NCBI RefSeq assembly: GCF_038502225.1
Contig: NW_027195240.1
Coordinates: forward strand, 172,501 to 236,500
Direction: 5' to 3'
DNA length: 64,000 nucleotides
Source: Cherax quadricarinatus
Lineage: Eukaryota; Arthropoda; Malacostraca; Decapoda; Parastacidae
The notes under the pieces: generated by a model
Database searches by the model: none
What the model was told of the DNA's origin: nothing
The model's input: only the letters and a program-made list of their open reading frames with translations
Shown: positions 1 to 36,590 of the stretch, one piece after another
Numbering within the stretch: the stretch's first letter is position 1
Layout of the letters: the number at the start of each line of letters is the position of its first letter
Translations under genes and position numbers: made by a program

Positions 1-405
1 AACACTAATTACTTCACTGATTACTGTACTAATTACTAAATTAATCACTATACTAATTACATTGTTCACTACACTAATTTCTGCTCTAATTACTTCACTA
101 ATTACTACAATAATTACTTTGCTAATTACTACACTAATTACTTAACTAATTACTGCACTAATTCCTCCGCTAATTTCTTCACTAATTCCTTCACTAATTA
201 CTTCTCTAATTACTTCACTAATTACTACAATAATTACTTTGCTAATTACTACACTAATTACTTAACTAATTACTGCACTAATTCCTCCGCTAATTTCTTC
301 ACTAATTCCTACACTAATTACTTCTCTAATTACTTCACTAATTACTACACTAATTACTTCACTAATTACTTCTCTACCATACTAATTTCTACACTAATTA
401 CTACA
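1..405. repeat. AT-rich ACTAATTACT tandem array, left part
   Basis: Imperfect short units built on ACTAATTACTnC run from the window edge. A higher-order repeat of 120 bp is visible: 91-210 and 211-330 are almost identical (each carries CTGCACTAATTCCTCCGCTA). The array stops abruptly where a LINE fragment begins, and the same motif resumes at about 8169, so this is probably one array split by an insertion. The left end lies outside the window. Confidence 0.9.
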
Positions 406-602
406 GAGAACAATCTGATGTGGAATGAAGACAAATTCCAACTAGTTTGTTATGGATAACTGGAGACTAATATGAAGGGAAAGGTAGTGTGAAGGACCTG
501 GGAGTGGTAATGTCTGAGGATCTCACCTTTAATGATCGTTACAGTGCCATTATCACACCTGCCAGGAAGATGTTATGATGGATAACTAGAACCTTCGAAA
601 CT
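406..602 (+). pseudogene. Non-LTR retrotransposon RT fragment, part 1 of 4
   Basis: The plus-strand translation from about 414 gives a WNEDKFQLVCYG-like stretch, and from 489 VKDLGVVMSEDLTFND, then ITPARKML, a stop, and WITRTFE. The pattern 'K-x-LGV-x(2)-s-x-DL' followed by a 'kmLgwI-RTFK' helix is typical of the region after the palm domain in Jockey/CR1-type LINE reverse transcriptases. There are in-frame stops, and the start at about 406 abuts the AT-rich array, as expected for a 5'-truncated LINE copy. The frame runs straight into the 29-bp array, whose unit encodes the ITRTFK segment. The next piece of the same protein resumes at 2342. Clade assignment is tentative. Confidence 0.72.
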
Positions 603-2341
603 AGAGATGGATAATGAGAACCTTCAAAACTATGGATGGATAATGAGAACCTTCAAAACTAGGGATGGATAATGAGAACCTTCAAAACTAGGGATGGATA
701 ATGAGAACCTTCAGAACTAGAGATGGATAATGAGAACCTTCAAAACTAGGGATGGACAATGAGAACCTTCAAAACTAGGGATGGATAATGAGAACCTTCA
801 AAACTAGGGATGGATAATGAGAACCTTCAGAACTAGAGATGGATAATGAGAACCTTCAAAACTAGGGATGGATAATGAGAACCTTCAGAACTAGAGATGG
901 ATAATGAGAACCTTCAAAACTAGAGATGGATAATGAGAACCTTCAGAACTAGAGATGGATAATGAGAACCTTCAAAACTAGGGGTGGATAATGAGAACCT
1001 TCAAAACTAGGGATGGATAATGAGAACTTTCAGAACTAGAGATGGATAATGAGAACCTTCAAAACTAGAGATGGATAATGAGAACCTTCAGAACTAGAGA
1101 TGGATAATGAGAACCTTCAAAACTAGGGATGGATAATGAGAACCTTCAGAACTAGAGATGGATAATGAGAACCTTCAGAACTAGAGATGGATAATGAGAA
1201 CCTACAGAACTAGAGATGGATAATGAGAACCTTCAAAACTAGAGATGGATAATGAGAACCTTCAAAACTAGAGATGGATAATGAGAACCTTCAGAACTAG
1301 AGATGGATAATGAGAACCTTCAAAACTAGGGATGGATAATGAGAACCTTCAGAACTAGAGATGGATAATGAGAACCTTCAGAACTAGAGATGGATAATGA
1401 GAACCTTCAAAACTAGAGATGGATAATGAGAACCTTCAGAACTAGAGATGGATAATGAGAACCTTCAGAACTAGAGATGGATAATGAGAACCTTCAAAAC
1501 TAGAGATGGATAATGAGAACCTTCAAAACTAGGGATGGATAATGAGAACCTTCAGAACTAGAGATGGATAATGAGAACCTTCAAAACTAGAGATGGATAA
1601 TGAGAACCTTCAGAACTAGAGATGGATAATGAGAACCTTCAAAACTAGGGGTGGATAATGAGAACCTTCAAAACTAGGGATGGATAATGAGAACTTTCAG
1701 AACTAGAGATGGATAATGAGAACCTTCAAAACTAGAGATGGATAATGAGAACCTTCAGAACTAGAGATGGATAATGAGAACCTTCAAAACTAGGGATGGA
1801 TAATGAGAACCTTCAGAACTAGAGATGGATAATGAGAACCTTCAGAACTAGAGATGGATAATGAGAACCTACAGAACTAGAGATGGATAATGAGAACCTT
1901 CAAAACTAGAGATGGATAATGAGAACCTTCAAAACTAGAGATGGATAATGAGAACCTTCAGAACTAGAGATGGATAATGAGAACCTTCAAAACTAGGGAT
2001 GGATAATGAGAACCTTCAGAACTAGAGATGGATAATGAGAACCTTCAGAACTAGAGATGGATAATGAGAACCTTCAAAACTAGAGATGGATAATGAGAAC
2101 CTTCAGAACTAGAGATGGATAATGAGAACCTTCAGAACTAGAGATGGATAATGAGAACCTTCAAAACTAAAGATTAATAATGAGAACCTTCAGAACTAGA
2201 GATGGATAATGAGAACCTTCAAAACTAGAGAAGGATAATGAGAACCTTCAAAACTAGAGAAGGATAACGAGAACCTTCAAAACTAGAGATGGATAATGAG
2301 AACCTTCAAAACTAGAGATGGATAATGAGAACCTTCAAAAC
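603..2341. repeat. 29-bp minisatellite, about 60 copies, grown inside a LINE RT frame
   Basis: The unit is GATGGATAATGAGAACCTTC followed by ARAACTAGR (29 bp). The main variable positions are AAAAC/AGAAC and CTAGA/CTAGG. Rare variants mark a 667-bp (23-unit) higher-order repeat: the GGGGTGG variant at 981 and 1648, and the CCTACAGAAC variant at 1201 and 1868. The unit is homologous to the LINE coding sequence on both flanks (TGGATAACTAGAACCTTCGA at 572-591), so the satellite was amplified from the element's own codons. A last few divergent units lie at 2165-2341. Confidence 0.95.
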
Positions 2342-2562
2342 ATGAGATGCCAGTGATGATCCTTATTAAATCACTTGTTGTGTCAAGGTTGTAATACTGG
2401 TGTACACTAACAGCTACATTCAACGCAGGTGAAGCTGCAGATCTAGAGACTGTACAGAGAACCTTTACTGCACATATAAGTTCTATCAAGTACCTTAACT
2501 ATTGGCAACACTTGGAAGCACTTGACTTGTACTCACTGGAGCATAGGCGAGACAGATACTAC
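2342..2562 (+). pseudogene. Non-LTR retrotransposon RT fragment, part 2 of 4
   Basis: The plus frame reads MPVMILIKSLVVSRL, one stop, then YWCTLTATFNAGEAADLETV, QRTFTAHISSIKYLNYWQHL and EALDLYSLEHRRDRYY. This is the LINE thumb/connection region: 'lyKSLV-SRLEYc-LWsP', 'iE-vQR-FT', and 'Y-eRL-L-LySLe-RR-RY'. It continues the piece ending at 602 in the correct protein order. The C-terminal RYYQ codons run directly into the TAC/CAC array, which suggests that array was seeded by the TACTACCAG codons here. It is a broken copy with no expected activity. Confidence 0.75.
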
Positions 2563-4150
2563 CAGCACTACCACTACCACTACTACCACCACCACTACCA
2601 CCACTACAACCAGCACTACCACCACTACAACCACCACTACCATCACTGCCACCACCACCACTACCACCACTACCACCACAACTGCTACCACTACCCCAAC
2701 TACCACCACCACAACTACCACCACCACTACCACCACTACCAACACCACTACTACCACCACCACTACCACCACCACTACCACCACCACTACCACCACCACC
2801 ACCACCATCACAACTACCACCACCACTACGACCACCACCATTACCACCAACACTACCACCACTACCACCACCACAACTACCACCAGCACTACCACCAGCA
2901 CTGCCACCACTACCACCACAACAACTACCACCACAACTACCATCACCACTACCACCACCACTACCACCACCACTACCACCACTACCACCACTACCACCAC
3001 TACCACCACTACCACCACTACCACTACCACAACTACCACCACCATTACCGCTACCACTACCACCATTACCACCACCACAACTACCACCATTACCACCACC
3101 ACTATCACCACCACCACTACCACCACTACCACCACCACAGCTACCACCACCACTTCCACATCTACCACCACTACCACCACCACAACTACCACCACCACTA
3201 CCACAACCACTACCACCACCACTACGACCACCACTACCACCACTACCACCACCACAACTACCACCACCACTACGACCACCACTACCACCACTACCACCAC
3301 CACAACTACCACCACCACTACCACCACCACTACCACCACTACCACCACTACCACCACCACAACTACCACCAGCACTTCCACCACCACTACTACCACCACT
3401 ACCACCACTTCCAACACTACCACCACCACAACTACCACCACCACTACCACCACCACTACCACCACAACTACCACCACTACCACCACCACCACAACTACCA
3501 CCACTACCACCACCACTACCACCACCACTACCACCACCACAACTACCACGACTACCACCACGACTACCACCACCACAACTACCACCACTACCACCACCAC
3601 TACCACCACCACTACCACCACCACTACCACCACCACTACCACCACTACCACCGCTACCACCACAACTACCACCACAGCTACCACCACCACTACCACCACT
3701 ACCACCACTACCACCACCACCACTACCTCCACTACCACCACCACCACCACCACTACCACCACCACCACCACCACCACCACCACCACCACTACCACTACCA
3801 TTACCACCACCACCACCACTACCACTACCATTACCACCACCACCACCACTACCACCACCACTACCACCACCACCACTACCACCACCACTACCACCACCAC
3901 CACCACTACCACTACCATTACCACCACCACCACTACCACCACTACCACCACTACCACCACCACTACCTCCACTACCACCACCACCACCACTACCACTACC
4001 ATTACCACCACCACCACTACCTCCACTACCACCACCACCACTACCACTACCATTACCACCACCACCACCACTACCACCATCTATTCATCACTGGGATGAC
4101 AAATAATCCCAGTGATCCACCACAATAACCACCATCTACCACCATCTACC
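2563..4150. repeat. TAC/CAC trinucleotide array, 1.6 kb
   Basis: Nearly pure (ACC)n(ACT)n with occasional ATT, GCT and CGA triplets. The plus strand has almost no G. All frames on the plus strand and the complementary Val-rich frame are stop-free (poly-Thr, His-Tyr, poly-Val), which follows from the triplet composition and is not evidence of a gene. It begins at the last codons of the upstream LINE fragment and fades into CCATCTACCACC units by about 4150. Confidence 0.95.
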
Positions 4151-4400
4151 ACCATCCACCACCACCATCAACATTCTAACAACCACTCTCTAATACCTCT
4201 AATTCTACGTCAAAATCGTCAACAAATCATCTTTTAGATGAGCAAATACCTGTCCTAACTCACCAACCTCTACTTAACTCATCATAAAATAATTGAACCT
4301 CTGGTTTAACCTGCTGGAGGTTCATAACTGCAGCAGCGGGGTTGTATCCCGGGCGCGGGTGGTACCTGGCTGTAAGTCAACTCACACTTGGTGGCATGCT
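4151..4400. other. Unassigned spacer inside the disrupted LINE
   Basis: Non-repetitive sequence of about 250 bp, AT-rich to about 4310 and then GC-rich (GTTGTATCCCGGGCGCGGGT). It separates the trinucleotide array from the next LINE piece. I recognise no coding or RNA signal. It may be degraded LINE sequence or a foreign insertion. Confidence 0.4.
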
Positions 4401-4608
4401 AATACCTTCTAGGGTAAAATCCTAGAGGGTCTGGTCCACCTAGCATTATCTAGAAATCACTCCCTATGAAAGCAACAGACCAGGAGATGCAATATTCCCT
4501 CAGTAAACAGCAGCGGCGCCACGAGTACACTGAGAGACAACACAGTAAGTGTCAGGGGCCCAAGACTGTTCAACTGCCTCCCAGTATACATAAGAGAGAT
4601 TACCAATA
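4401..4608 (+). pseudogene. Non-LTR retrotransposon RT fragment, part 3 of 4
   Basis: Pieces of the LINE C-terminus are readable across frameshifts: KILEGLVHLALS (near 4420), EITPYESNRPGDA, STLRDNTVSVRGPRLFNCLP and IREITNRPLAVFK. The ILEGLV and GPRLFN-LP signatures normally follow the SLERRRERY region, so order and orientation agree with the pieces at 406-602 and 2342-2562. The same peptide series, better preserved, occurs at 9463-9700. The last codons (PLAVFK) are the seed of the 19-bp array that follows. Confidence 0.75.
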
Positions 4609-7600
4609 GACCCCTGGCTGTCTTCAAGACCCCAAACTGTCTTCAAGACCCCTGGCTGTCTTCAAGACCCCTGGCTGTCTTCAAGACCCCTGGCTGTCTT
4701 CAAGACTTCTGGTTGTCTTCAAGACCCCTGGCTGTCTTCAAGACCCCTGGCTGTCTTCAAGACTTCTGGTTGTCTTCAAGACCCCTGGCTGTCTTCAAGA
4801 CTTTTGGTTGTCTTCAAGACTCCTGGTTGTCTTCAAGACCCCTGGTTATCTTCAAGACCCCTGGTTGTCTTCAAGACTTCTGGCTGTCTTCAAGACCCCT
4901 GGCTGTCTTCAAGACTCTTGGCTGTCTTCAAGACCCCTGGTTGTCTTCAAGACCCCTGGTTGTCTTCAAGACCCCTGGTTGTCTTCAAGACTCCTGGTTG
5001 TCTTCAAGACCCCTGGTTGTCTTCAAGACCCTTGGGTGTCTTCAAGACCCCTGGTTGTCTTCAAGACCCCTGGTTGTCTTCAAGACCCCTGGGTGTCTTC
5101 AAAAGACCCCTGGTTCTCTTCAAGACTTCTGGCTGTCTTCAAGACCCCGGTTCTCTTCAAGACCCCTGGTTGTCTTCAAGACCCCTGGGTGTCTTCAAGA
5201 CCCCTGGGTGTCTTCAAGACCCCTGGGTGTCTTCAAGACTCCTGGCTGTCTTCAAGACCCCTGGTTGTCTTCAAGACCCCTGGTTGTCTTCAAGACCCCT
5301 GGCTGTCTTCAAGACCCCTGGTTGTCTTCAAGACTCCTGGTTGTCTTCAAGACCCCTGGCTGTCTTCAAGACCCCTGGTTGTCTTCAAGACTCTTGGTTG
5401 TATTCAAGACCCCTGGTTGTGTTCAAGACCCCTGGTTGTCTTCAAGACCCCTGGTTGTCTTCAAGACCCCTGGTTGTCTTCAAGACCCCTGGTTGTCTTC
5501 AAGACTCCTGGTTGTCTTCAAGACCCCTGGTTGTCTTCAAGACTCCTGGTTGTCTTCAAGACCCCTGGTTGTTTTCAAGACCCCTAGTTGTCTTCAAGAC
5601 CCCTGGTTGTCTTCAAGACCCCTGGTTGTCTTCAAGACCCCTGGTTGTCTTCAAGACTCCTGGTTGTCTTCAAGACCCTTGGTTGTCTTCAAGACACCTG
5701 GTTGTCTTCAAGACCCCTGGTTGTCTTGAAGACTCCTGGTTGTCTTCAAGACCCCTGGTTGTCTTCAAGACCCCTGGTTGTTTTCAAGACCCCTGGCTGT
5801 CTTCAAGACCCCTGGTTGTCTTCAAGACTCCTGGTTGTCTTCAAGACCCCTGGTTGTTTTCAAGACCCCTGACTGTCTTAAAGACCCCTGGTTGTCTTCA
5901 AGACTCCTGGTTGTCTTCAAGACCCCTGGTTGTCTTCAAGACCCCTGGTTGTCTTCAAGACCCCTGGTTGTCTTCAAGACCCTTGGTTGTCTTGAAGACC
6001 CCTGGTTGTCTTCAAGACCCCTGGCTGTCTTCAAGACCCCTGGTTGTCTTCAAGACTCCTGGTTGTCTTCAAGACCCCTGGTTGTCTTCAAGACCATTGG
6101 CTGTCTTCAAGACCCCTGGCTGTCTTCAAGATCCCTGGTTGTCTTCAAGACTTCTGATTGTCTTCAAGACCCCTGGTTGTCTTCAAGACTCCTGATTGTC
6201 TTCAAGTCCCCTGGTTGTCTTCAAGTCTCCTGATTGTCTTCAAGACTCCTGGTTGTCTTCAAGACCCCTGGTTGTCTTCAAGACCCCTGGTTGTCTTCAA
6301 GACCCCTGGTTGTCTTCAAGACCCCTGGTTGTCTTCAAGACCCCTGGCTGTCTTCAAGACCCCTGGTTGTCTTCAAGACTCCTGATTGTCTTCAAGACCC
6401 CTGGTTGTCTTCAAGACTCCTGATTGTCTTCAAGACTCCTGGTTGTCTTCAAGACCCCTGGTTGTCTTCAAGACCCCTGGTTGTCTTCAAGAACCCTGGT
6501 TGTCTTCAAGACCCCTGGTTGTCTTCAAGACCCCTGGCTGTCTTCAAGACCCCTGGTTGTCTTCAAGACTCCTGATTGTCTTCAAGACCCCTGGTTGTCT
6601 TCAAGACTCCTGATTGTCTTCAAGACTCCTGATTGTCTTCAAGACTCCTGGTTGTCTTCAAGACCCCTGGTTGTCTTCAAGACCCCTGGTTGTCTTCAAG
6701 ACCCCTGGTTGTCTTCAAGACCCCTGGTTGTCTTCAAGACCCCTGGTTGTCTTCAAGACCCCTGGTTGTCTTCAAGACCCCTGGTTGTCTTCAAGACCCC
6801 TGGTTGTCTTCAAGACTCCTGGTTGTCTTCAAGACTCCTGGCTGTCTTCAAGACCCCTGGTTGTCTTCAAGACCCCTGGTTGTCTTCAAGACCCCTGGTT
6901 GTCTTCAAGACTCCTGGTTGTCTTCAAGACTCCTGGTTGTCTTCAAGACCCCTGGTTGTCTTCAAGACCCCTGGTTGTCTTCAAGACCCCTGGTTGTCTT
7001 CAAGACCCTTGGTTGTCTTCAAGACCCCTGGTTGTCTTCAAGACCCCTGGTTGTCTTCAAGACCCCTGGTTGTCTTCAAGACCCCTGGTTGTCTTCAAGA
7101 CCCCTGGCTGTCTTCAAGACCCCTGGTTGTCTTCAAGACCCCTGGGTGTCTTCAAGACCCCTGGGTGTCTTCAAGACCCCTGGGTGTCTTCAAGACCCCT
7201 GGCTGTCTTCAAGACCCCTGGGTGTCTTCAAGACCCCTGGGTGTCTTCAAGACCCCTGGCTGTCTTCAAGACCCATGGGTGTCTTCAAGACCCATGGCCG
7301 TCTTCAAGCCTGCTGGCTGCCTTCCCGACCCTGGCTGTCTTCAAGACTCCTGGGTGTCTTCAAGACCCCTGGTTGTCTTCAAGACCCCTGGTTGTCTTCA
7401 AGACCCCTGGTTGTCTTCAAGACCCCTGGTTGTCTTCAAGACCCCTGGCTGTCTTCAAGACCCCTGGTTGTCTTCAAGACCCCTGGTTGTCTTCAAGACC
7501 CCTGGTTGTCTTCAAGACCCTTGGTTGTCTTCAAGACCCCTGGTTGTCTTCAAGACCCCTGGTTGTCTTAAAGACCCCTGGTTGTCTTCAAAACCCCTGG

Positions 7601-7978
7601 TTGTCTTCAAGACCCCTGGCTGTCTTCAAGATCCTTGGCTGTCTTGAAGACCCCTGGTTGTCTTCAAGACCCCTGGCTGTCTTCAAGACCCCTGGGTGTC
7701 TTCATGATCCATGGTTGTCTTCAAGACCCCTGGGTATCATCAAGACCCTGGGTGTCTTCAAGACCCCTGGCTGTCTTCAAAACCCATGGATGTCTTCAAG
7801 ACCCCTGGCTGTCTTCAAGACTCCTGGGTGTCTTCAAGAGCCCTGGCTGTCTTCAAGATTCCTGGGTGTCTTCAAGACCCCTGGTTGTCTTCAAGACTCC
7901 TGGGTGTCTTCAAGACCCCTGGCTGTCTTCAAGACTCCTGGGTGTCTTCAAGACCCCTGGTTGTCTTCAAGACCCCAT
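4609..7978. repeat. 19-bp minisatellite, about 177 copies
   Basis: The unit is CCCTGGYTGTCTTCAAGAC. Variable positions include CCCC/CTCC/CTTC and GGTTG/GGCTG/GGGTG. Because 19 is not a multiple of three and the unit contains no stop, all three plus frames are open and read the same 19-residue cycle (PLVVFKTPGCLQDPWLSSR). Variants cluster locally (GGTTG dominates the middle, GGGTG near 7140-7280 and 7680-7960), as expected for local unequal exchange. The unit matches LINE codons for PLAAFK, and a four-copy version sits at 9618-9695. Confidence 0.95.
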
Positions 7979-8168
7979 CTTCAAGATGGAGATGGACAGA
8001 CACACAGTACTTGACCAGCCAGGCTGTGGTCCGTACGTTGGTTTACGTGTGGCCAGCAGTAGCAGCCTGGTTGATCAGGTTCTGATCCACCACCACGCCT
8101 GGTCATGGACTAGCTCGGGGGGGCGTTGACCCCCTGGAACTTCCTCCAGGTAGACTCTAGGCAGGTAG
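7979..8168 (+). pseudogene. Non-LTR retrotransposon C-terminus and 3' tail, part 4 of 4
   Basis: After the 19-bp array the frame resumes as FKMEMDRHTVLDQPGCGPYV, then GLRVASSSSLVDQVLIHHHA and WSW. It aligns with the copy at 9690-9844 (RELDRYLKSVPDQPGCG, then LVDQALIHREAWSW). The 3' tail (8095-8154, GGGGGCGTTGACCCC then CTCCAGGTAG) is shared with a SINE at 36442-36501. A short direct repeat CAGGTAGACT occurs at the very end, just before the AT-rich array resumes. Confidence 0.75.
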
Positions 8169-8312
8169 ACTAATTTCTGGACTAATTAGTACACTAATTA
8201 CTGCTAAAATGACTGTACTAATTACTACAATAGTTGCTTCACTAATTGCTGTATTAATTAGTACGATAATTACTAATTACTAAGCTAATTAGTACAGTTA
8301 CTTAACTAATTA
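8169..8312. repeat. AT-rich ACTAATTACT array, right part
   Basis: Units such as ACTAATTACTACAATAGTTG match the array at 1-405. It sits directly after the LINE 3' tail, so the LINE appears to have inserted into a pre-existing array. Confidence 0.8.
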
Positions 8313-8344
8313 TTACACACATTGTTTATTCTTATAACAAGGTG

Positions 8345-9376: not shown

Positions 9377-9870
9377 ATGACGAACTCTAGCTCAAGTCCC
9401 CTCAAAATTGTGTCTATGCTAACCTTGTGGTCCCTTGCAGTCCCAAATCTGCACACAGAAATCACTCCCTACGAAAGTAAAAGACTGGGCAGGCGATGCA
9501 AAATGCCGCCAATAAAAAGTAGGGGTGCCATTGGTACACTAAGAGAAAACACCATAAGTGTCCGGGGCCCAAGACTGTTCAACAGCCTCCCATCAAGCAT
9601 TAGGGGAATTGCCAATAAACCCCTGGCTGCCTTCAAGACCCCTGGCTGCCTTCAAGACCCCTGGCTGCCTTCAAGACCCCTGGCTGCCTTCAAGAGAGAG
9701 CTGGACAGATACCTAAAGTCGGTGCCGGATCAGCCGGGCTGTGGCTCGTACGTCGGACTGCGTGCGGCCAGCAGTAACAGCCTAGTTGATCAGGCCCTGA
9801 TCCATCGGGAGGCCTGGTCGTGGACCGGGGCGCGGGGGCGTTGATCCCCGGAATAACCTCCAGGTAAGTT
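9377..9870 (+). pseudogene. LINE 3' end with four 19-bp units (ancestral state of the 177-copy array)
   Basis: An open frame over 9377-9844 (155 residues) carries EITPYESKRLGRRCKMPP, TLRENTISVRGPRLFNSLP, PLAAFK, RELDRYLKSVPDQPGCG and LVDQALIHREAWSW. This is the C-terminus of a LINE reverse transcriptase protein without the RT domain itself, so it is a 5'-truncated copy. Four tandem copies of CCCTGGCTGCCTTCAAGAC occupy 9618-9695. The three extra units add 57 bp (19 codons) and so preserve the frame into RELDRYLK. The 3' tail (9808-9866) is shared with the LINE at 8095 and a SINE at 36442. It lies between two family C SINE fragments. Confidence 0.75.
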
Positions 9871-10424: not shown

Positions 10425-11230
10425 TGTATGAGGCAGTGTATGAGGCAGTGTATGAGGCAGTGTATGAGGCAGTGTATGAGGCAGTGTATGAGGCAGTGTA
10501 TGAGCCAGTGTATGAGGCAGTGTATGAGCCAGTGTATGAGCCAGTGTATGAGGCAGTGTATGAGGCAGTGTATGAGGCAGTGTATGAGCCAGTGTATGAG
10601 GCAGTGTATGAGCCAGTGTATGAGGCAGTGTATGAGGCAGTGTATGAGGCAGTGTATGAGGCAGTGTATGAGGCAGTGTATGAGGCAGTGTATGAGCCAG
10701 TGTATGAGGCAGTGTATGAGCCAGTGTATGAGCCAGTGTATGAGGCAGTGTATGAGGCAGTGTATGAGGCAGTGTATGAGGCAGTGTATGAGGCAGTGTA
10801 TGAGCCAGTGTATGAGCCAGTGTATGAGCCAGTGTATGAGGCAGTGTATGAGGCAGTGTATGAGGCAGTGTATGAGCCAGTGTATGAGGCAGTGTATGAG
10901 GCAGTGTATGAGGCAGTGTATGAGGCAGTGTATGAGCCAGTGTATGAGGCAGTGTATGAGCCAGTGTATGAGCCAGTGTATGAGGCAGTGTATGAGGCAG
11001 TGTATGAGCCAGTGTATGAGGCAGTGTATGAGCCAGTGTATGAGGCAGTGTATGAGGCAGTGTATGAGCCAGTGTATGAGCCAGTGTATGAAGCAGTGTA
11101 TGAGATAGTGTATGAGGCAGTGTATGAGGCAGTGTATGAGGCAGTGTATAAGGCAGTGTATGAGCCAGTGTATGAGGCAGTGTATGAGCCAGTGTATGAG
11201 CCAGTGCGCGAGGCAGTGTATGAGGCAGTG
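10425..11230. repeat. 12-bp array, homogeneous left part
   Basis: About 67 copies of TATGAGSCAGTG, with one binary site (GAGGCAG or GAGCCAG). The order of the two variants shows a partial 16-unit (192-bp) higher-order period near the left edge. The 12-bp unit is four codons, so stop-free frames on both strands are expected artefacts. Confidence 0.95.
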
Positions 11231-14200
11231 CAGAGGCGGTGTAGCAGGGCGGTGTGAGCCGGTGAGGCGGTGGCAGGCCGGTGTGAGCCGGTGTAGCAGG
11301 AGGCGGTGGCAGCAGGGCGGTGGCCTTGAGGCGGTGGCGGCTGAGCCGGGGCGGTGGCAGCGGGGCGGTGCGCCGAGGCGGTGTGAGCAGTGTGAGCGGT
11401 GGCAGGGCGGTGGCAGGCCGGTGTGAGGCGGTGAGCCAGTGTTGCCCAGGCAGGTAGCGAGGCGTTGAGCCAGTGCAGGCCGGTGTAGAGGCGGTGTAGC
11501 AGGGCGGTGTATGAGGGCAGTGTAGCAGGCCAGTGTAGCGAGGCAGTGTAGCCAGGCCAGTGTAGCAGGGCGGTGCAGCAGGCAGTGTAGGCAGTGAGGC
11601 GGTGCTTGCAGGCCAGTGTATGAGGCGGTGGCAGAGGCAGTGTAGCAGGCCAGTGTATGAGGCGGTGTGGCAGAGGCGGTGTATGGGCGGTGTAGCAGGC
11701 GGTGCGAGCCAGTGTAGGCCAGTGTGAGCCGGTGGCGCGGTGTAGGGGCGGTGTGTGAGGCGGTGTAGCCAGGCGGTGAGCCCAGTGTAGCGAGGCGGTG
11801 TGGGGCGTTCAGCGGGGCAGTGTAGGGCAGTGTATGAGGCAGTGTATAAGGCAGTGTATGAGCGTTGAGCCGGTGTAGCAGGCCGGTGCTTGTGAGCCAG
11901 TGTAGCAGGAGCGGTGTAGCAGAGCGGTGCCCAGGCAGTGTATGAGCCAGTGGCAGCAGGCCAGTGCTTGTGAGGCCGGTGTGAGGCGGTGTAGCGAGGG
12001 CAGTGTATGAGCCAGTGTAGCAGGCCCGGTGTAGCGAGGCGGTGTGAGCCGGTGTAGCGGGCGGTGTAGGGTAGTGTATGAGGCCGGTGTAGCAGGCGGT
12101 GTAGAGGCAGTGTAGAGGCAGTGTATAAGCCAGTGCAGAGGCGGTGGCCGGGCAGTGTGGCGGGACGTGTATGAGGCAGTGAGGTGATGTGAGGCAGTGT
12201 ATGAGGCAGTGCAGAGGCAGTGTAGCAGAGCGGTGCATGAGCCAGTGTAGCAGAAGAGGCAGTGTATGAGCCCGGTGTACTGAGACCCAGTGCTTGGCAG
12301 GGGCGGTGAATGGGGCAGTGTAGCAGGCCAGTGTAGCAGAGGCGGTGTAGCAGGCAGTGCCTTGAGCCAGTGTGGCAAAGGCAGTGTAGCAGGCCAGTGT
12401 GCAGGCCGGTGCTTAGCAGGCCAGTGTAGCAGAGGCGGTGTGGCAGCGAGGCAGTGTGTGAGGCAGTGTATGAGCCAGTGTAGCAGGCCAGTGCTTGAGC
12501 AGTGTAGCAGGCCAGTGTATGAGGCAGTGAGCCGGTGAGCCAGTGCTTGAGCCAGTGCAAGGGCAGTGCAGGCCAGTGCAGGCCAGTGCGCCCAGGCCGG
12601 TGTGGCAGGCCGGTGGCAGGCCGGTGTCGCGGGGCAGTGCTTAGCAGGCCAGTGTAGCCAGGCAAGTGTAGCAGGCCGGTGCAGAGGCAGTGAGCCAGTG
12701 TGAGCAGTGAGCCAGTGTATGAGGCGGTGTAGCAGGCCAGTGTATGAGCCGGTGTAGCAGGGCGGTGTAGCGAGGCAGTGAGGCAGTGAGCAGTGTATGA
12801 GGCGGTGCGCGAGCCAGTGTATGAGCCAGTGTGGGGGCGGTGCTTGCCAGGCCAGTGTGAGGCAGTGTATGAGCAGTGTATGGGCCAGTGTAGGCCAGTG
12901 GCAGCGGGGCGGTGTAGCCAGGGCAGTGCTTGAGCCAGTGTAGCAGGCTGATGTGCAGGCCAGTGCGCCAGGCCCGGTGCTGTGGGGGCAGTGCTTGCAG
13001 GCCAGTGAGGCGGTGTAGCCCAGGCCAGTGTAGAGCCGGTGCGAGGCGGTGTGGGGCGGTGTATCGGGAGGCGGTGCAGGCGGTGTGGGGCGAGGCCTTG
13101 AGCCAGTGTATGAGCCAGTGTATGAGCCAGTGTAGCGAGGCAGTGTAGCAGGCCAGTGCAGAGGCAGTGTAGCAGGCCAGTGCAGGCAGTGAGGCAGTGT
13201 ATGAGGCAGTGGGAGCGGTGCTTGTGAGCAGTGCCTTGAGCCAGTGTGAGGCGGTGTAGCAGGCCAGTGTGAGGCAGTGCTTGAGCGATGAGCCAGTGAG
13301 GCGGTGTAGCAGGCTGGTGTGAGGCGGTGTAGCAGAGGCAGTGGTGATGTATGAGGCAGTGTAGAGCCAGTGTATGAGCCAGTGTATGAAGCAGTGTAGC
13401 AGGCCAGTGGCAGAGGCGGTGTGGAGGGCAGTGAGGCGGTGTATAGGCAGTGAGCCAGTGTATGAGGCAGTGTATGAGCCAGTGTGAGCCGGTGTAGCAG
13501 GCAGTGTAGAGGCAGTGCCGCGGAAAAACCAGTGTAGTGAGGCAGTGTGGGGGCAGTGTGAGGCAGTGGATGAGGCAGTGTATGAGCAGTGTAGCAAGGC
13601 CAGTGTAGCAGGCCCGGTGTAGGCCGGTGTGTGAGGCAGGTGTAGCGAGGCGGTGTGGCAGGGCAGTGCGTGAGCCAGTGCTTGTGGGCCCGGTGTGCAA
13701 GGCAGTGTGAGGCAGTGTGAGCCAGTGCAGGCCAGTGTGTGAGGCAGTGTACCAGGCCAGTGTATGAGGCGGTGTATGAGCCATTGAGCAGTGTAGGCCA
13801 GTGTAGCAGGGGCAGTGAGCCAGTGCGAGGCACTGTGAGGCCAGTGCGCAGGCAGTGCCCAGGCCCAGTGGCATGAGGCGGTGTGGCAGAGGCAGTGAGG
13901 CGGAGGAGGAGGTGTGGCAGAAGAGAAAGGGAGGGAGGCAGTGTAGCAGGCCAGTGTGAGCCAGTGTAGCAGAGGCAGTGCAGGCCAGTGTATGGGGCAG
14001 TGCAGGCCAGTGCTTGCAGGCCAGTGCGAGGCAGTGTGTGGGCAGTGTATGGGCCAGTCTACATGAGGCGGTGTAGCAGGCAGTGAGCCAGTGGCAGGCC
14101 AGTGTGAGGCAGTGCTTAGGCCAGTGTAGAGGCAGTGCAGGCCAGTGTGTAGGCCAGTGTGAGGCGGTGTAGCAGGAGCGGTGTATGAGGCAGTGTGAAG

Positions 14201-17200
14201 CGATGTGTGAGCCAGTGTGTAGGCCAATTGTAGCAGGGCAGGTGTGAGCCAGTGTAGCAGGGCGGTGTATGGGCAGTGTAGCAGGCCGGTGTGGCAGGGG
14301 CGTGAGCCCAGTGTAGCATGGGCAGTGTGGCAGAGGCAGTGCCCTTGAGCAGTGTAGAGGCGGTGGCCAGCAGGCCAGTGCAGGCCAGTGTGTGAGCAGT
14401 GTAGATCCGGTGCTTGTGAGGCGGTGGCAGAGGCGGTGGGCAGTGTATAAGGCAGTGTATGAGCCAGTGTATGAGGCAGTGCAGGCAGTGTAGCAGGCAG
14501 TGTGAGGCGGTGTATGAGGCGGTGTGAGGCGGTGTGGGGCAGTGAGGCGGTGTGAGGCGGTGTATGAGCCAGTGTAGCAGGCCAGTGTAGCAAGGCGGTG
14601 CCAGAGGCGGTGCTTAGCAGGCAGTGTGAGCCGGTGAGCCGGTGAGGCGGTGGCCATGAGCCATTGTGAGCCGGTGGCAGGCGGTGGCAGGGCGGTGTGA
14701 GCCAGTGTGAGCCAGTGTAGCCAGAAGCAGTGTGAGGCAGTGCTTGAGGCGGTGTGAGGCGGTGTAGCCAGGCCAGTGTATGAGCCAGTGTAGAGCCGGT
14801 GTGTGAGCCAGTGCTGGAAAGCCAGTGAGGCGGTGTAGAGGCGGTGTGCAGGCGGTGCTTGCAGGCCCGGTGTAGCCAGGTCAGTGTAGCGAGTCCCGGT
14901 GTATGGCAGGCCAGTGGCCAGCAGGCCGGTGTAGCAGGCCCGGTGCTTGGCAGGCCGGTGTAGCAGGCAGTGTGGCCCAGGCCAGTGCTTGAGCCAGTGC
15001 AGGCCGGTGTAGCAGAGGCGGTGCTTGCAGGCCAGTGTGGCAGGGCGGTGCAGGCCAGTGTAGCAGGCCAGTGCTTTATGGGGCGGTGAGCCCGGTGGCA
15101 GAGGGCGGTGTGGCGAGGCGGTGCCAGGCCAGTGTAGGGAGGCGGTGTAGCAGGCCAGTGCAGGCCCAGTGTGTAGGCGGTGTGAGATGAGTGAGGCGGT
15201 GTAGAGGCGGTGTGAGGCGGTGTATAAGGCAGTGCAACTGCAGGCCAGTGTGAGGCGGTGCTTGTAGGCAGTGCAGGCCAGTGTATGAGGCGGTGTAGAG
15301 GCAGTGTAGGCCAGTGTAGCAGAGGCAGTGTGGCAGGGCAGTGAGGCGGTGTATGAGGCGGTGTATGAGCCAGTGTAGCAGGCCAGTGAGCCCGTGAGCC
15401 AGTGTGAGGCAGTGTGAGGCGGCAGGGCGGTGTAGCAGGCCAGTGTATGAGCCAGTGTAGCAGGCCGGTGTATGGGCGGTGGCAGCAGGGCGGTGCAGGC
15501 CAGTGTAGCAGGCCGGTGTAGAGGCAGTGTAGGCCGTTGTATGAGCCAGTGGCATGAGCCAGTGTATGAGGCGGTGCTTGGGCCAGTGTGAGGCGGTGTA
15601 GGGCGTGGCAGAGCGGTGCAGCAGGCGGTGTGGCAGCAGGTCAGTGTATGGGCCAGTGTAGCAAGGCAGTGTGAGCCAGTGCTTGAGCCGGTGTGGCAGG
15701 CAGTGTAGCGAGCCAGTGCTTGAGCCCGGTGTATGAGGGGCGGTGTATGAGCCGGTGAGGCGGTGTGAGCGGTGTAGCAGGCAGTGCCAGCAGGCCGGTG
15801 TAGCAGGGCGGTGTAGCAGAGTCAGTGAGCCAGTGTGGCGAGCCAGTGAGGCAGTGTGCAGAGGCAGTGCTTATGAGCCAGTGTATGAGCCAGTGCCTTG
15901 AGCAGTGTAGAGGCCAGTGTGAGGCAGTGTGTGAGGCAGTGTAGCAGGCCAGTGTAGCAGAGGCAGTGTAGCAGGAGCCAGTGTAGGCCCGGTGTAGAAG
16001 CAGTGTGGGGTGGTGTGAGGCAGTGCCAGCAGAGGCGGTGTGAGGCGGTGGGCCGGTGCAGGCAGTGGCCAGCGAGGCAGTGTAGCAGGCGGTGCAGGCC
16101 GGTGAGGCGGTGTATGAGGCGGTGTAGCAGGCCAGTGTGAGGCAGTGTAGCAGGGGGCGGTGGGCGGTGAGGCAGTGCAGGCCAGTGCAGGCAGTGCTTA
16201 GCCCAGGCCAGTGTGAGGCGGTGTGAGGCGGTGTAGCAGGGCAGTGTATGGGCCAGTGCAGCAGGCCAGTGCAGGCCAGTGTATAAGGCAGTGAGGCAGT
16301 GAGCAGTATAGCAGGCCAGTGCAGAGGCGGTGTATGAGCCATTGAGCCAGTGCAGGCCAGTGTATGAGGCAGTGAGCCAGTGTAGCAGAGGCAGTGTATG
16401 AGCCAGTGTAGCAGAGGCGGTGTATGAGCCAGTGTATGATCCAGTGCTTATGAGCCAGTGCTTATGGCCAGTGGGCGGTGTATGAAAGCCCGGTGTATGA
16501 GCAGTGTGAGCCAGTGTAGCAGGCCAGTGTAGCAGGCCAGTGAGGCGGTGCAGGCCGGTGTATGGGGCAGTGCTTGGGCCGGTGTAGCAGGCCCAGTGTA
16601 TGAGCAGTGTGGCAGGGCGGTGTAGGTCGGTGCCAGCAGGCGGTGAGCCGGTGTATGAGGCAGTGAGGCGGTGTAGCAGGCCAGTGTATGAGCCCGGTGT
16701 ATGAGCCAGTGTATAAGGCGGTGAGGCGGTGTATTAGCCAGTGTAGCAGGCCGGTGTATGAGGCGGTAGATGAGCCCAGTGTATGAGGCAGTGTAGCGAG
16801 CCATTTATGAGCCGGTGAGCCAGTGAGGCAGTGAGCCAGTGAACCCGTGAAGCAGTGTATGAGGCGGTGTATGAGGCAGTGAGGCAGTCATGTAGGCAGT
16901 GTAGCCCAGGCCCAGTGTGGCCGAGGCCAGTGTGAGCCGGTGTATGGTGAGGTGGCCTTGAGGCGGTGTAGCCCGGTGTGGCAGGGCAGTGTAGCAGGCC
17001 CGGTGTGGCAGGTCAGTGCTTGGCAGGCCAGTGCAGGCCAGTGTGGCGCAGGCCGGTGCGCGGGCCCGGTGCAGGCCAGGTGTGGCAGGCCCGGTGTGAG
17101 CCAGTGTATGAGCCAGTGTGAGGCGGTGTGAGGCGGTGCAGCAGAGGCGTGAGCCAGTGTGTGAGCCAGTGTATGAGCCAGTGTATGAGGCAGTGTGAGT

Positions 17201-20200
17201 CAGTGTATGAGCCAGTGTGAGCCGGTGTAGAGGCAGTGTATGGGGGGCAGTGTGTAGGCCAGTGCTTGCAGGCAGTGTAGCAGGCCGGTGTGAGGCAGTG
17301 AGCCAGTGTATGAGCCGGTGTAGCAGGAGCCCAGTGAGCAGTGTATGAGGCGGTGTATGAGGCGGTGAGGCGGTGTGAGTCAGTGTAGCAGGCCGGTGAG
17401 CCAGTGTAGCAGCAGACGGTGCGCAGGCCAGTGTAGCCAGGCGGTGAGGCCGGTGTAGCAGGCCGGTGGCAGCAGGACGGTGTAGCAGGCCGGTGTGTAG
17501 GCCGGTGCTTAGCCAGGCCAGTGTAGGCGGTGTAGCAGGCCAGTGTGTCGGCGGTGCAGGCCAGTGTGAGCCAGTGAGCAGTGTATGAGCGGTGATGAGG
17601 CAGTGTAGCAGGCCAGTGTGAGGAGGCAGTGAGCCAGTGTAGAGGCAGTGAGGCGGTGCAGGCCAGTGTTGTGAGCGGTGTAGCAGAGGCGGAGTGAGCC
17701 AGTGTAGTAGAGGCGGTGCTTATGAGCCAGTGCTTGAGCCAGTGTATGAAGCAGTGGTCAGTGTATGAGGCGGTGAGGCAGTGTAGCGAGGCAGTGTAAG
17801 GCAGTGTATGAGCCAGTGTAGAGGCGGTGCAGGCCAGTGAGCCAGTGTATGAGGCGGTGTAGCCAGGGCCAGTGGGCAGTGAGGCAGTGTATGAGGCGAG
17901 TGTATGAGGCAGTGCATGAGCCAGTGTAGCAGGCCAGTGTATGAGCCCGGTGCTTGGGCCGCTGCTTATGAGGCAGTGTATGAGGCAGTGTATGAGGCCC
18001 AGTGTATGAGCCAGTGTATGAGCAGTGTAGCAGGCCAGTCAACCTTAAGGCCAGTGAGGCGGTGAGCCAGTGTATGGGCAGTGTGGCAGGGCGGTGTGAG
18101 CCCGGTGTGGGGCGGTGTGAGCCATGCAGCAGGCCAGTGTAGCAGGCCAGTGTATGAGGCAGTGAGCCAGTGTAGAGCCAGTGCAAGCAGTGTGAGGCAG
18201 TGTGAGGCAGTGTATGAGGCAGTGCTTATGAGCCAGTGCAGGCGATGTGGCAGGCCCAGTGTAGCAGGCCAGTGTAGCAGGCCAGTGGCAGCGGGGCGGT
18301 GGGCCAGTGTGAGGCAGTGGGCCAGTGCAGGTCAGTAGCCTTGAGCAGTGTGAGCCAGTGTAGCAGGCAGTGTAGCAGGCCCGGTGAGCCCGGTGTGAGC
18401 CAGTGTAGGCCAGTGCTTCATGAGCCCGGTGCAGCAGAGGCAGTGCTTGGCAGGCCAGTGTAGCAGCAGAGGCAGTGAGCAGTGTAGCAGGCCAGTGTAG
18501 CATGAGGCAGTGAGCCAGTGTGAGGCGGTGTGGCGGGGGGCAGTGTAGCAGGCCAGTGTGTAAGGGCGGTGAGCCAGTGTATGAGCCAGTGTATGAAGCA
18601 GTGAGATAGTGTAGCAGGCAGTGTAAGAGGCGTGTAGCAGGCAGTGTATAAAAGGCAGTGTAGCAGGCCAGTGCAGAGCCGGTGGAGGCAGTGTATGAGC
18701 CAGTGAGGCGGTGTAGCGGGGCTGGTGGCCATGGGCCAGTGTGAGGCAGTGTATGAGGCAGTGAGGCAGTGCTTGAGCCCGGTGTACTTAGGCCAGTGTA
18801 GGCCAGTGTGAGCCGGTGTAGAGGCGGTGGCAGCAGGAGCCAGGTGTGAGCCGGTGTGAGCAGTGTAGCAGGCAGTGTATAAGGCAGTGTAGCAAGGCAG
18901 TGTACTTGAGCCAGTGCCAGGCAGTGTAGCGGGGCAGTGCTTATGAGCCATTGTAGCCCAGGCTTCCCGGTGTAGGCCAGTGTATGAGGCAGTGTATGAG
19001 CGGTGTAGTGAGGCGTGTATGAGCCGGTGTAGAGGCGAGTGTAGGCCGGGTGGCAGGTCGGTGTGAGCCGGTGAAGGCGGTGCTTGAGCCGGTGTAGCAG
19101 GCCGGTGTGAGGCGGTGTAGCAGGCGGTGTGCAGGCCGGTGTAGCAGAGGCGGTGTAGGCCAGTGTATGAGGCGGTGTAGCAGGCCAGTGTATGGGCCAG
19201 TGTAGCAGAGCAGTGTATGAGGCAGTGCGCAGGTCAGTGTAGCAGGCCAGTGCGCCAGGCCAGTGTAGCAGGGCAGTGTATGAGGCGGTGTGTGAGCCCG
19301 GTGCTTGAGCCAGTGTAGCCCAGAGGCAGTGCTTGTGAGCCGGTGTGAGGCAGTGTGGCGGGCAGTGTAGCAGGCCAGTGAGGCAGTGCTTGAGCCAGTG
19401 CTTGTGAGCCCAGTGTGAAGCGGTGTGAGATGAGTGTATGAGGCGGTGGCGAGGCAGTGTATGGGGCAGTGTAAGGCAGTGAGCCAGTGTAGTGAGGCGG
19501 TGTAGCAGGCGGTGTAGCAGGCCAATGTGGCAGAGGCAGTGAGGCGGTGAGCCAGTGTAGAGGCGGTGCTTGTGAGGCGTGCAGGAGGCGGTGTATGAGG
19601 CAGTGAGCCAGTGCCCTTGAGCCAGTGAATGAGGCGGTGTATGAGGCAGGCGTGCAGAGGCGGTAGATGAGCCAGTGTAGCAGGCCAGTGTAGCAGGCCA
19701 GTGTATGGGCGGTGTATGAGGCAGTGTGCTGAGCCCGAGTGTAGGCCCGGTGTAGCAGGCCATTGTGACCAGTGTATGAGCCAGTGTATGAGGCGGTGAG
19801 CCAGTGTATGAGGCGGTGTATGGCCAGTAGCCAGGGCGGTGTGAGCCAGTGTGAGTCGATTAGCAGGCCAGTGTATGAGCCAGTGTAGCAGGCAGTGTAT
19901 GGCCAGTGTAGCAGGCAGTGTGAGCCAGTGTAGGCCAGTGCTTGTGAGCCAGTGAATGGGGCAGTGTGAGCCAGTGGGGCGGTGTATGGGCCAGTGCAGG
20001 CCGGTGTAGCAGGCCGGTGGGGTGGTGTAGCAGGTCGGTGTATGGGCCAGTGTGGGCCATTTGGCAGGCGGTGAGGCAGTGTATGAGCCAGTGCAGACAG
20101 TGTATGAGCCAGTGTATAAGGCAGTGTAGCAGAGGCAGTGTATGGGCAGTGTGAGCCAGTGAGGCAGTGTAGCAAGGCCAGTGTAGAGGCAGTGTATGAG

Positions 20201-20668
20201 CCATTGTGAGCCAGTGTATGAGCAGGTAGCAGGCAGTGTATGACCAGTGTGAACCAGTGAAGCAGTGTAGAGGCGGTGTAGAGGCAGTGTATGAGGCGGT
20301 GTAGCAGGCCAGTGAGCCAGTGTGAGCCGGTGCTTGCAGGCCAGTGTATGGGTAGTGAGGCGGTGTAGCAGGCCGGTGTAGTGGGGCGGTGTGAGCCAGT
20401 GTGGCGATTGGTGTAGCAGGCCAGTGTAGCAGGCCAGTGTAGCAGGCCAGGTGTGAGCCGGTGTATGAGCCCGGTGTGAGCCAGTGCCTTCAGGCCAGTG
20501 AGCCGTGAGCAGTGTATGCAGGCAGTGTATGAGCCAGTGTAGAGGCCAGTGTGAGGCCAGTGTAGAGGCCAGTGAGCCAGTGTGAGCCAGTGCAGGCGGT
20601 GTATAGGCGGTGAGGCCGCCAGTGTATGAGCCAGTGTATGAGCCAGTGTATGAGACAGTTTATACAGC
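11231..20668. repeat. Degenerate G-rich array derived from the 12-bp unit, 9.4 kb
   Basis: Variable-length modules of the form GTGTAGCAGGCCA, GTGTGAGGCG, GTGTATGAGCCA and GTGCTTGAGCCA are shuffled over more than 9 kb. They all share the GTG..AG.C[CG]..GTG frame of the neighbouring 12-bp unit. Clean 12-bp units return at 20622-20660. The plus strand is strongly G over C. No unique sequence, SINE or coding fragment was recognised inside it. Leu/His/Thr-rich minus-strand frames are artefacts. Confidence 0.9.
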
Positions 20669-28504: not shown

Positions 28505-28928
28505 TATTACAACCTAGGATTTCAAATGGCCTGTTATCCCAGGTGTAATGGGAGCAAATAAACACAGTAGAAAAAGTTTAGACTTATATTATCCTTCACC
28601 AATTATAACAGCAATATGTACACTATGTACAGTGATAAATATAGTGCACTCCACGGTAAGCAAGGCAGAAATAGAAGCCACAAGATAGCAGACCGTGCTT
28701 CAACCAGCTCTAGAGTGGGAATGACAAGGGCAGACAGGAGAGCGGTATCCACATAACCTCTGCGATTGTCAATCCCACCTTCTTATTGGCTAGAACCTGG
28801 TCACTAGTTGAACGATGGGGCCCCATCATCAACTCTTAGCAACCTGGTTCGCTGGTTGGGGGAGATAGCCTGTAAATGAGGGTGTGTCCATGCGCCGAAT
28901 AAAGGTTACGTACTCTTTGCATGCCACA
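28505..28928 (-). repeat. 3' LTR of the Gmr1-like element
   Basis: 424 bp. On the element strand it starts TGTGGCATGCAAAGAG and ends CCTAGGTTGTAATA, so it does not end in the usual CA. It appears identical to 34164-34587. An AT-rich ATAATATAAG stretch could serve as a core promoter. I did not find AATAAA on the element strand within the LTR. Confidence 0.93.
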
Positions 28929-28940
28929 CCCCCACCCCCG
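28929..28940 (-). promoter_or_regulatory. Polypurine tract
   Basis: On the element strand CGGGGGTGGGGG lies immediately upstream of the TGTGGCATGC start of the 3' LTR, the expected site for plus-strand DNA priming. One T interrupts it. The degenerate relative at 35042-38486 has a comparable G-rich stretch just before its 3' LTR. Confidence 0.8.
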
Positions 28941-29244
28941 AGAAGGCTCAGGATTAGGCTGCCACCTCCCAGTGGTAACCGTGCCGCCATGGCACAAAAT
29001 AATGGGACCGCCTATCCTCTCCACCATCCAACTCTTAGATAGAGCTCAGCTTTCCTAGTGCCTGAAAGCCAAACCCTAAACTCAGAGTGAGACAGCAGTC
29101 AGATAAGCCAACATAGGTCCAAGATACAAGCGGACGGTAGCCCGTATCCCCTCACTAAAAAAAAACCCCCACATCAGGGGATAAAAAAAAGAGCTTGAAA
29201 GGGGGGTTACCACAAATACATCCTAACCTAAATAAAATATTAAA

Positions 29245-33843: not shown

Positions 33844-34145
33844 AAGTTATTCGCTATGCACAGTACGAATACCCCAACGTAACACGTTAATTTGCAGAAC
33901 ACGCTTAGCTATGCACAGTACGATTGCAGAATACGCATACAAGCAAAGCCGACTGCACACAAGACTGACCGTAGCGAAGCGAGCACACTGAACAAGCTAG
34001 TAGCGAGCTGCTGAACGATCACACAATAGCAAGGCTGATCATAAGCAACTGACACGCAAAATTTGTAAAGCGAAGCGAAACAGCAAGCTACACAATGTTC
34101 CTGCTACAAGCTTCACCCTAAGCTCAACCGTTTCTCTAAGTCCAG
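33844..34145 (-). other. 5' leader of the Gmr1-like element
   Basis: About 300 bp between the primer binding site and the Gag-Pol ATG. Short overlapping open stretches exist but none resembles a known protein. The leader should contain packaging and translation signals, which I cannot identify. Confidence 0.6.
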
Positions 34146-34163
34146 CTCCCGGACAGGCCCCCA
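34146..34163 (-). promoter_or_regulatory. tRNA primer binding site
   Basis: On the element strand TGGGGGCCTGTCCGGGAG follows the 5' LTR directly. It matches 15 of 18 bases of the tRNA-Pro-type site used by some retroviruses (TGGGGGCTCGTCCGGGAT, from memory), differing at positions 8, 9 and 18. It begins with the TGG expected from a CCA tRNA end. The true primer tRNA is not proven. Confidence 0.8.
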
Positions 34164-34587
34164 TATTACAACCTAGGATTTCAAATGGCCTGTTATCCCA
34201 GGTGTAATGGGAGCAAATAAACACAGTAGAAAAAGTTTAGACTTATATTATCCTTCACCAATTATAACAGCAATATGTACACTATGTACAGTGATAAATA
34301 TAGTGCACTCCACGGTAAGCAAGGCAGAAATAGAAGCCACAAGATAGCAGACCGTGCTTCAACCAGCTCTAGAGTGGGAATGACAAGGGCAGACAGGAGA
34401 GCGGTATCCACATAACCTCTGCGATTGTCAATCCCACCTTCTTATTGGCTAGAACCTGGTCACTAGTTGAACGATGGGGCCCCATCATCAACTCTTAGCA
34501 ACCTGGTTCGCTGGTTGGGGGAGATAGCCTGTAAATGAGGGTGTGTCCATGCGCCGAATAAAGGTTACGTACTCTTTGCATGCCACA
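34164..34587 (-). repeat. 5' LTR of the Gmr1-like element
   Basis: 424 bp, visually identical over its whole length to the 3' LTR at 28505-28928. It should drive transcription of the Gag-Pol frame toward lower coordinates. Its first bases (TGTGGCATGCnAAGAGTA) are conserved with the LTRs of the old element at 35042-38486. Confidence 0.93.
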
Positions 34588-35934: not shown

Positions 35935-36590
35935 TCTGAGGGAGGAGTCAGCTTCGCTAGTGCTTGAGTTAGCTCAGTGTTGAGTACACCGGGGAACAAC
36001 GTGCATTTGCTAAGGAAGAATCTGATAGAGAAGGAAAGTAGACAGTTTTGGCGTACTATGGATGATAATTTCAGTGTACAGAAATCTGTGTCCCTAGTAC
36101 ATTTGATTTTCTGAATCTGAACAGATTTTCGAATCTTTTGAAAATCTGCCTCGAGCTTTGCGATGGCTACTGGGCAGCACTGGTTAATACAGTATTATAT
36201 GGTGAAATGGAGGAATTCACTACTGATTTGAATGAAGAACATTTCTATGACTACAGCGGGGCTCTGGTGGCCTGGTGGTTAACGCTCTGGCTTCACACGG
36301 TGAGGGCCTGGGTTCGATTCCCAGCCAGAGTAGAAACATTGGACGTGTTTCTTTCAACCTGTTGTCTATGTTCCCCATCAGTAAAATGGGTACCTGGGTG
36401 TTAGTCGACTGGTGTGGGTCGCATCCTGGGACACTGACCTAAGGAGGCCTGGTCACAGACCGGGCCGCGGGGGCGTTGACCCCCGGAACTCTCTCCAGGT
36501 AAACAGCGTCGGGGAAGTAACTGTGGGCTGTACATACCAGTGTAGTTCCAGCAGTTGTTGTCGTGAGTTTAAGAGACACGTAAGTTTATT
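35935..36590 (+). pseudogene. Broken gag of the degenerate Gmr1-like element
   Basis: Short stretches align with residues about 97-230 of the intact Gag: ESASLVLELAQ, EQRAFAKEE, an ESFEN-x(2)-RALRW motif at 36122-36166, and WAALVNTVLYG up to FYDY at 36252. The match resumes after a SINE with a stretch ending REFKRH near 36580. Frameshifts and stops separate the blocks. Only the capsid N-terminal part remains. It is not functional. Confidence 0.78.
36253..36508 (+). mobile_element. tRNA-derived SINE, family B, inserted in gag remnant
   Basis: The head begins about 36259 (GGCCTGGTGGTTAACGCTCT), with a CTGGGTTCGATTCCCAG B-box arm that forms a perfect T-stem. The central block TACCTGGGTGTTAGTCGACT is shared with family A. 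The 3' tail (36442-36501) matches LINE 3' ends at 9808-9866 and 8095-8154. ACAGCG at 36253-36258 and 36503-36508 is a likely 6-bp target duplication, and gag-like coding resumes directly after it. The head is not a tRNA gene because its anticodon arm is not tRNA-like. Confidence 0.85.

Follow-up and report, generated by a model that had tools for sequence, protein, structure and literature searches.

Two minisatellites made from the codons of one dead LINE copy in the genome of the crayfish Cherax quadricarinatus

The birth of a minisatellite is difficult to follow, since the sequence from which it expanded has in most cases disappeared. A stretch of 64,000 nucleotides from Cherax quadricarinatus (contig NW_027195240.1, positions 172,501 to 236,500, subsequently called the window) raises the question whether such a start can still be read within a single copy of a long interspersed nuclear element (LINE). 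Close to the left end of the window, pieces of a LINE alternate with tandem arrays; a first-pass annotation had described this as one LINE reading frame inflated by three independent satellites, each born from the codons at its junction. The best overall explanation, which we regard as very likely, is that two minisatellites with units of 29 and 19 bp have grown in a dead LINE insertion, that the 19-bp segment was duplicated separately in a second copy of the family (C2), and that the third array, of TAC/CAC type, was not born from the LINE. Found here together are the parent element, its flanks, arrays at the same site at two stages (4 versus ~177 units) and unexpanded relatives.

Positions 402–8152 are one dead, 5′-truncated LINE copy that is split into four fragments (F1–F4) by tandem arrays. 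All four lie on the + strand in the order of the protein, and together they cover the C-terminal part of two C. quadricarinatus proteins (P0006 and P0007) with almost no gap or overlap. F1 (402–606) reads from ENN via VKDLGVVMSEDLTF to WITRTFETRD and contains stops; tblastn places P0006 residues 13–62 at 459–608, and the fragment extends weakly upstream to P0007 residue 103 at 406 (E 0.014; also by eye), its start being set by eye. F2 (2345–2559) runs from MPVMILIKSLVVSRL to LEHRRDRY. The tblastn match to P0006 residues 53–134 (2290–2559, E 4e-34) begins further upstream, with its first ten residues (53–62) falling in the last unit of the 29-bp array; F2 proper corresponds to residues 65–134. 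F3 (4397–4626) leads from KILEGLV through EITPYES and VRGPRLFNCLP to ITNRPLAVFK and ends in the first 19-bp unit, corresponding to P0006 residue 141 up to the FK at 211–212; it was located by tblastn with both proteins from 4416 onwards, and 4397–4415 were placed by eye. F4 (7977–8152) reads from FKMEMDRHTVLDQPGCGPYVGLRVASSSSLVDQ to GGR and a stop (P0006 211–261, P0007 331–382), followed by the LINE 3′ end (...CCTCCAGGTA), which it has in common with sites ending at 9866 and 36501.

When the fragments were joined and read in three frames as a single protein query, P0006 was the best match (62% identity, 93% query coverage, E 6.8e-93), and P0007 matched with 61% identity, 93% coverage and E 5.5e-90. 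Of 20,000,000 random placements of fragments of the same lengths, 15 put them on the given strand with neighbours separated by −2 to +6 residues, a range that equals the observed one and was picked afterwards. The family encodes a reverse transcriptase domain: P0007 carries PF00078 (RVT_1) with 51.5 bits at a cut-off of 29.6. P0006 has no Pfam match, and the window copy holds the C-terminal part only, without the part bearing this domain; a Pfam scan of C2, F1 and F2 yielded no match.

The insertion is embedded in an AT-rich satellite. To the left lies a 12-bp satellite resembling CACTAATTACTT (1–401; 3–376 according to Tandem Repeats Finder, TRF), which served as the target of the LINE, and the same satellite with its CTAATTACT motifs resumes on the right (8166–8320; TRF 8169–8274). 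The motif CTAATTA[CG]T, with at most one mismatch, was counted 31 times in the 405 bp of the left flank and 9 times in the 176 bp of the right one; five further non-array stretches, 293–5231 bp in length, each contained it once at most. The same satellite on both flanks and the tiling of the fragments together point to a single 5′-truncated insertion. The truncation point lies at ~402, and a repetitive target of this kind would mask any target-site duplication. Truncation at the 5′ end is usual for LINE insertions. The number, strand and order of the fragments thus stand as first annotated, as do the sizes: ~800 bp of element have grown about tenfold to ~7.8 kb, for the most part through the 29-bp and 19-bp arrays. 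One copy is also what we find in place of the "single LINE reading frame" of that annotation, but as a dead, 5′-truncated piece with stops and frame shifts. The AT-rich satellite on both sides and C2 (9440–9866) with its four-copy 19-bp array had not been mentioned.

The first interruption is a 29-bp minisatellite on the + strand (577–2349; TRF 61.1 copies, ~1.8 kb) with the unit GATGGATAATGAGAACCTTCAAAACTAGA, that is, the codons of WIMRTFKTRD. This consensus is identical to P0006 residues 53–62 in all 10 residues (blastx E 4e-4 in a set of 15 proteins), and the array sits between P0006 residues 62 and 65. Both named Cherax relatives that cover the site, P0006 and P0007, are unexpanded and read straight through. 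By eye, the unit length equals the spacing of two GATG tetramers in the LINE. Split in register, the array yields 61 monomers, which fall into 14 types. Those at its two ends belong to types that occur once, and the last unit has full length. A run of 22 monomers is repeated within the array, with a maximum of 7 in 500 shuffles, and corresponds to an exact repeat of 672 bp (831–1502 = 1498–2169) at a spacing of 23 monomers, which indicates a block duplication. At unit position 22 the LINE-state A (AAA, K) lies slightly nearer to the array ends (p 0.035). None of the ten consensus residues has changed relative to P0006, although the flanking matches are only 62–69% identical; for an array of late origin in already decayed sequence, a simple estimate puts the chance of this at 0.8–2.4%. 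These values weakly favour an early birth, with homogenisation afterwards, over a late one.

The 19-bp minisatellite (4608–7976, + strand; TRF 177.4 copies, ~3.4 kb) has the unit AGACCCCTGG[C/T]TGTCTTCA, the codons of RPLAVFK, and its first monomer consists of the LINE's own RPLAVFK codons, as in P0007. The segment is bounded by two AGA triplets in the LINE, the junction falls at P0006 residues 212/211, and the segment is single-copy in all three named Cherax relatives (P0006, P0007 and P0015). At unit position 11 the LINE-state C (37 of 178 monomers) is found nearer to the ends, at a mean distance of 30.6 monomers versus 44.1 in shuffles (p 0.0001). T is the most frequent state there (121/178) and is found nearer to the centre. 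Such a pattern is predicted for an array that grew out of a LINE seed by slippage or unequal exchange. With 14 bp the last unit falls short of a full repeat, as expected of the slipped-strand model (PMC3389668, in the passages bearing on this point). Both arrays derive from the LINE's own codons and stand at the matching position in the copy. Neither 19 nor 29 is a multiple of three, which makes selection at the protein level an unlikely reason for the arrays.

C2 shows the same site at an earlier stage. This second copy of the family (9440–9866, + strand; tblastn E 2e-64) is 5′-truncated with an open C-terminal frame, and its protein is 95.7% identical to P0006 if the gain is left out. The gain belongs to four 19-bp units (CCCCTGGCTGCCTTCAAGA; 9617–9695, + strand, TRF 9619–9695) at the same LINE site, here reading KPLAAFK, and amounts to 57 bp or 19 residues in frame. 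It is missing from 8 of 8 database relatives in our main alignment (8 database proteins, P0014 left out), which show a gap of 19 or 20 columns, and from P0015. A search with C2 alone gave five distant proteins of 35–41% identity, none with the 19-residue gain, and a search with part of F3 and the array, which scored only the 8,000 candidates with most words in common, yielded two proteins that likewise lack it. No confirmed relative was found in the viral contigs (as protein or by a DNA pattern of the 19-bp dimer) or in the genome contigs searched. At unit position 14 all four C2 monomers carry C, whereas 176 of 178 in the large array carry T; these bases agree with the family types, LAAF in P0006 and LAVF in P0007 and P0015. 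With a different diagnostic base in each, the two arrays are most likely of separate origin, and judged from these sequences the 19-bp site has probably expanded twice, independently, in the large copy and in C2.

Source elements of the family might instead have held a short 19-bp repeat already, which was inherited by retrotransposition and of which only the later growth was local. Both window copies that cover the site do have repeats, and the C2 gain, a multiple of three, keeps the frame open. However, the three named Cherax relatives are single-copy, each array has its own base at the diagnostic position, and an in-frame count is expected by chance in one case out of three; we therefore consider inheritance unlikely, though it keeps some weight, and retain two separate births.

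Two further observations concern the family itself. The sequence at 36261–36501 starts with a tRNA-like head (Rfam RF00005, 36261–36332), continues with ~60 bp matching the 3′ end of the LINE family (85% to C2) and looks like a short interspersed nuclear element sharing the LINE's tail. P0015, a model of fructose-1,6-bisphosphatase 1-like isoform X1 of C. quadricarinatus, starts with ~140–160 residues of the LINE family, probably through an annotation artefact or an exonised LINE.

The middle interruption is of another kind. It comprises a microsatellite-type TAC/CAC array with a 12-bp period (2557–4079; TRF 127.7 copies) and ~317 bp that are neither LINE nor clean array (4080–4396) and separate it from F3. 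At this site the LINE relatives P0006, P0007 and P0008 read RERYxIIYTWKI, whereas in the window TACCAGCACTACCAC follows DRY; the LINE contributes no more than the TAC of the Y codon, and the "YQ" already belongs to the array. In blastx against P0006, P0007 and P0015 the array had no match better than E 5, and 4080–4396 had none better than E 2.7 to the same proteins. Compared with the rest of the window, 4080–4396 matched arrays of TAC/CAC type over short lengths, plus a motif of 13–19 bp, and nothing else. Comparable repeats fill 22.5–28.5, 34.6–35.0 and 38.6–39.0 kb and, on the other strand, 42.3–44.8 kb. From its sequence, the middle interruption is probably a generic microsatellite, or an insertion containing one; no LINE-derived unit was seen in it. 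That this array was likewise born from the LINE, out of the TAC of the RY codons, appears quite improbable to us: it does begin directly at that codon and no more than about six LINE residues are unaccounted for around it, but a single matching codon is weak evidence, similar repeats occupy four other places in the window, and ~317 bp without a match to the Cherax LINE proteins (neither stretch better than E 2.7) lie between the array and F3. Of the three satellites first attributed to one LINE, two thus hold, given their unexpanded relatives and insertion boundaries, and the third does not, given its generic motif and the ~317 bp of non-LINE sequence. Likewise, units matching the codons at their junctions are found for the 29-bp array (10/10 P0006 residues) and the 19-bp array (first monomer RPLAVFK) but not for TAC/CAC, where the match is one codon.

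In this connection, 4080–4396 and the sequence in front of the 47-bp array at 44.8 kb were considered as one element; this idea was rejected, as the two share only 13–19 bp and, by eye, differ in their order relative to the TAC/CAC-type arrays. A TAC/CAC-type array also surrounds a candidate young retrotransposon of long terminal repeat (LTR) type at 28505–34582. Direct repeats of 419 bp, identical to each other, enclose 5.2 kb that contain a long minus-strand open frame; in the two pieces of the frame that were scanned we found integrase zinc-binding and CCHC domains, and a SCAN match below the cut-off.

The history that we propose for the locus would start with the insertion of an ~800-bp LINE piece, its 5′ end cut off, into the AT-rich satellite. 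After the death of the element, the 29-bp and 19-bp coding segments would each have been duplicated in tandem. Units, birthplaces, edges, the block duplication in one array and the absence from relatives were found in the data; the first duplication step may have been slipped-strand mispairing or a repair slip. From at least two copies on, the arrays could have reached their 1.8 and 3.4 kb through unequal exchange or slippage. A block of ~23 monomers would have been duplicated in the 29-bp array, and the middle of the arrays homogenised while LINE-state or odd monomers remained at the edges. In the neighbouring copy C2 the 19-bp segment would have been duplicated separately. The growth was most likely neutral, in a dead element, and we propose no function for it.

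Several points weigh against this history. The microhomology available for a start is short: 4 bp for the 29-bp unit (GATG), 3 bp for the 19-bp unit (AGA) and ~1 bp for C2, lengths read by eye from the flanks. As much homology is found at random positions of the non-array DNA of the window in 2.2% (4 bp, at a spacing of 29), 7.5% (3 bp) and 46% (~1 bp) of cases. In the Haber–Louis model of minisatellite origin the unit lies between direct repeats of 5–10 bp, and the two established models may account for only 6% of human cases (PMC3389668, in the relevant passages); direct repeats of 5–10 bp are present at neither the 29-bp, the 19-bp nor the C2 array. The 14-bp last unit of the 19-bp array could equally result from a later deletion, a block repeat beyond chance was not found in this array (7 monomers; shuffles up to 11), and the 29-bp array shows a weak edge effect (p 0.035). 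The case for two independent 19-bp births depends on a single diagnostic base together with mixed family markers: in 19 diagnostic columns the large copy is of P0007 type in 11, of P0006 type in 4 and of neither type in 4, and a tree of 7 rows did not resolve. The LINE copies compared are those in the 64-kb window and the database proteins, and the array lengths rest on one assembly.

The last point bears on whether the array lengths, or part of the arrays, could be artefacts of assembly or base calling. The exact 672-bp repeat inside the 29-bp array would be in line with this, as would the region at 11.2–20.6 kb, which resembles a corrupted form of an adjacent clean 12-bp array. On the other hand, monomer variation is structured with edges unlike the centre, the existence of arrays at these sites does not hinge on how many units they contain, and for the LINE fragments there are matching relatives, so that an artefact seems doubtful as an explanation. 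That the four fragments are separate LINE insertions standing in order among satellites by accident is hardly credible: the abundance of LINEs and tandem repeats in C. quadricarinatus (PMC10106460, as far as its relevant passages go) lets one expect them as neighbours, but order, strand, near-zero gaps and overlaps, the same satellite beyond both ends and two arrays built of the very codons at their junctions speak for growth within one insertion.

Minisatellites derived from transposable elements, including those from open reading frame 2 (ORF2) of LINEs, are already known, and the present case is a clear and instructive example rather than a new kind. Alu minisatellites were reportedly described by Jurka and Gentles. 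For the human genome, the passages of PMC3389668 that concern such repeats count 7,276 cases, 6,817 of them without either start sign and most of these with two units. As here, the units were cut from a copy of a transposable element, the start lay at or after the individual insertion, and either short direct repeats or a last unit cut short served as start signs; unlike those cases, the present locus has 61 and ~177 units, two arrays in one copy and starting repeats of 3–4 bp. Satellites derived from LINE ORF2 include PROsat of Phodopus roborovskii, Pvc20 of the harbour seal and HinfI/SCR1 from chicken CR1 (PMC9659126, in the matching passages). Their monomers, as here, match part of a LINE reading frame; they are described there as satellites with an ORF2-similar region, whereas the 19- and 29-bp units still lie at their birthplace in the parent copy. 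In Lathyrus sativus, short arrays in dispersed LTR retrotransposons occasionally lengthen into satellites (PMC7004042, in the passages bearing on this), which is similar; there, however, the arrays lie within genome-dispersed elements, while here the parent is a dead LINE and three of three named Cherax relatives lack the 19-bp array.

Freshwater crayfish, including C. quadricarinatus, carry 54–622 satellite families per species, with minisatellites below 100 bp as the largest part; among the matching passages listed from that satellitome paper (12 of 28), none describes a minisatellite birth inside a LINE (PMC13130569). In a C. quadricarinatus assembly LINEs make up 42.6% and tandem repeats by TRF 22.6% (PMC10106460, in the corresponding passage), and with such contents the nesting of arrays in LINEs should be common in this species. 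Among the matches listed from the open-licence literature in PubMed Central, we saw none that describes a LINE copy with two arrays together with a second copy in which the same site starts again. As a tentative idea, the 19-bp RPLAVFK segment may be a recurrent birth site at which many Cherax copies start to repeat independently; the family would then act as a dispersed seed bank of satellites whose abundance helps to explain the minisatellite-rich genomes of crayfish. In a LINE family rich in copies one could determine how frequently a segment starts repeating, at what positions and in what copies.

The window contains further arrays. The units of 11 others were compared with the 15 proteins found; the best E value was 0.30 and none looks LINE-derived. 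A clean 12-bp array (TGTATGAGGCAG) at 10425–11243 passes into >9 kb in which the motif becomes irregular and richer in GC (11233–20650); this looks like base-calling or consensus errors in a long array. A further array, with 101.5 copies of a 48-bp unit (49589–54514), is flanked by inverted copies of CAACGTTTCGCCC. Leaving aside a 14-bp match of simple repeat, no longer inverted match occurs in the flanks of 13 arrays, and this array possibly grew inside an element with inverted ends. Finally, a near-perfect palindrome of 314 bp, 95% self-complementary, is located at 36708–37021.

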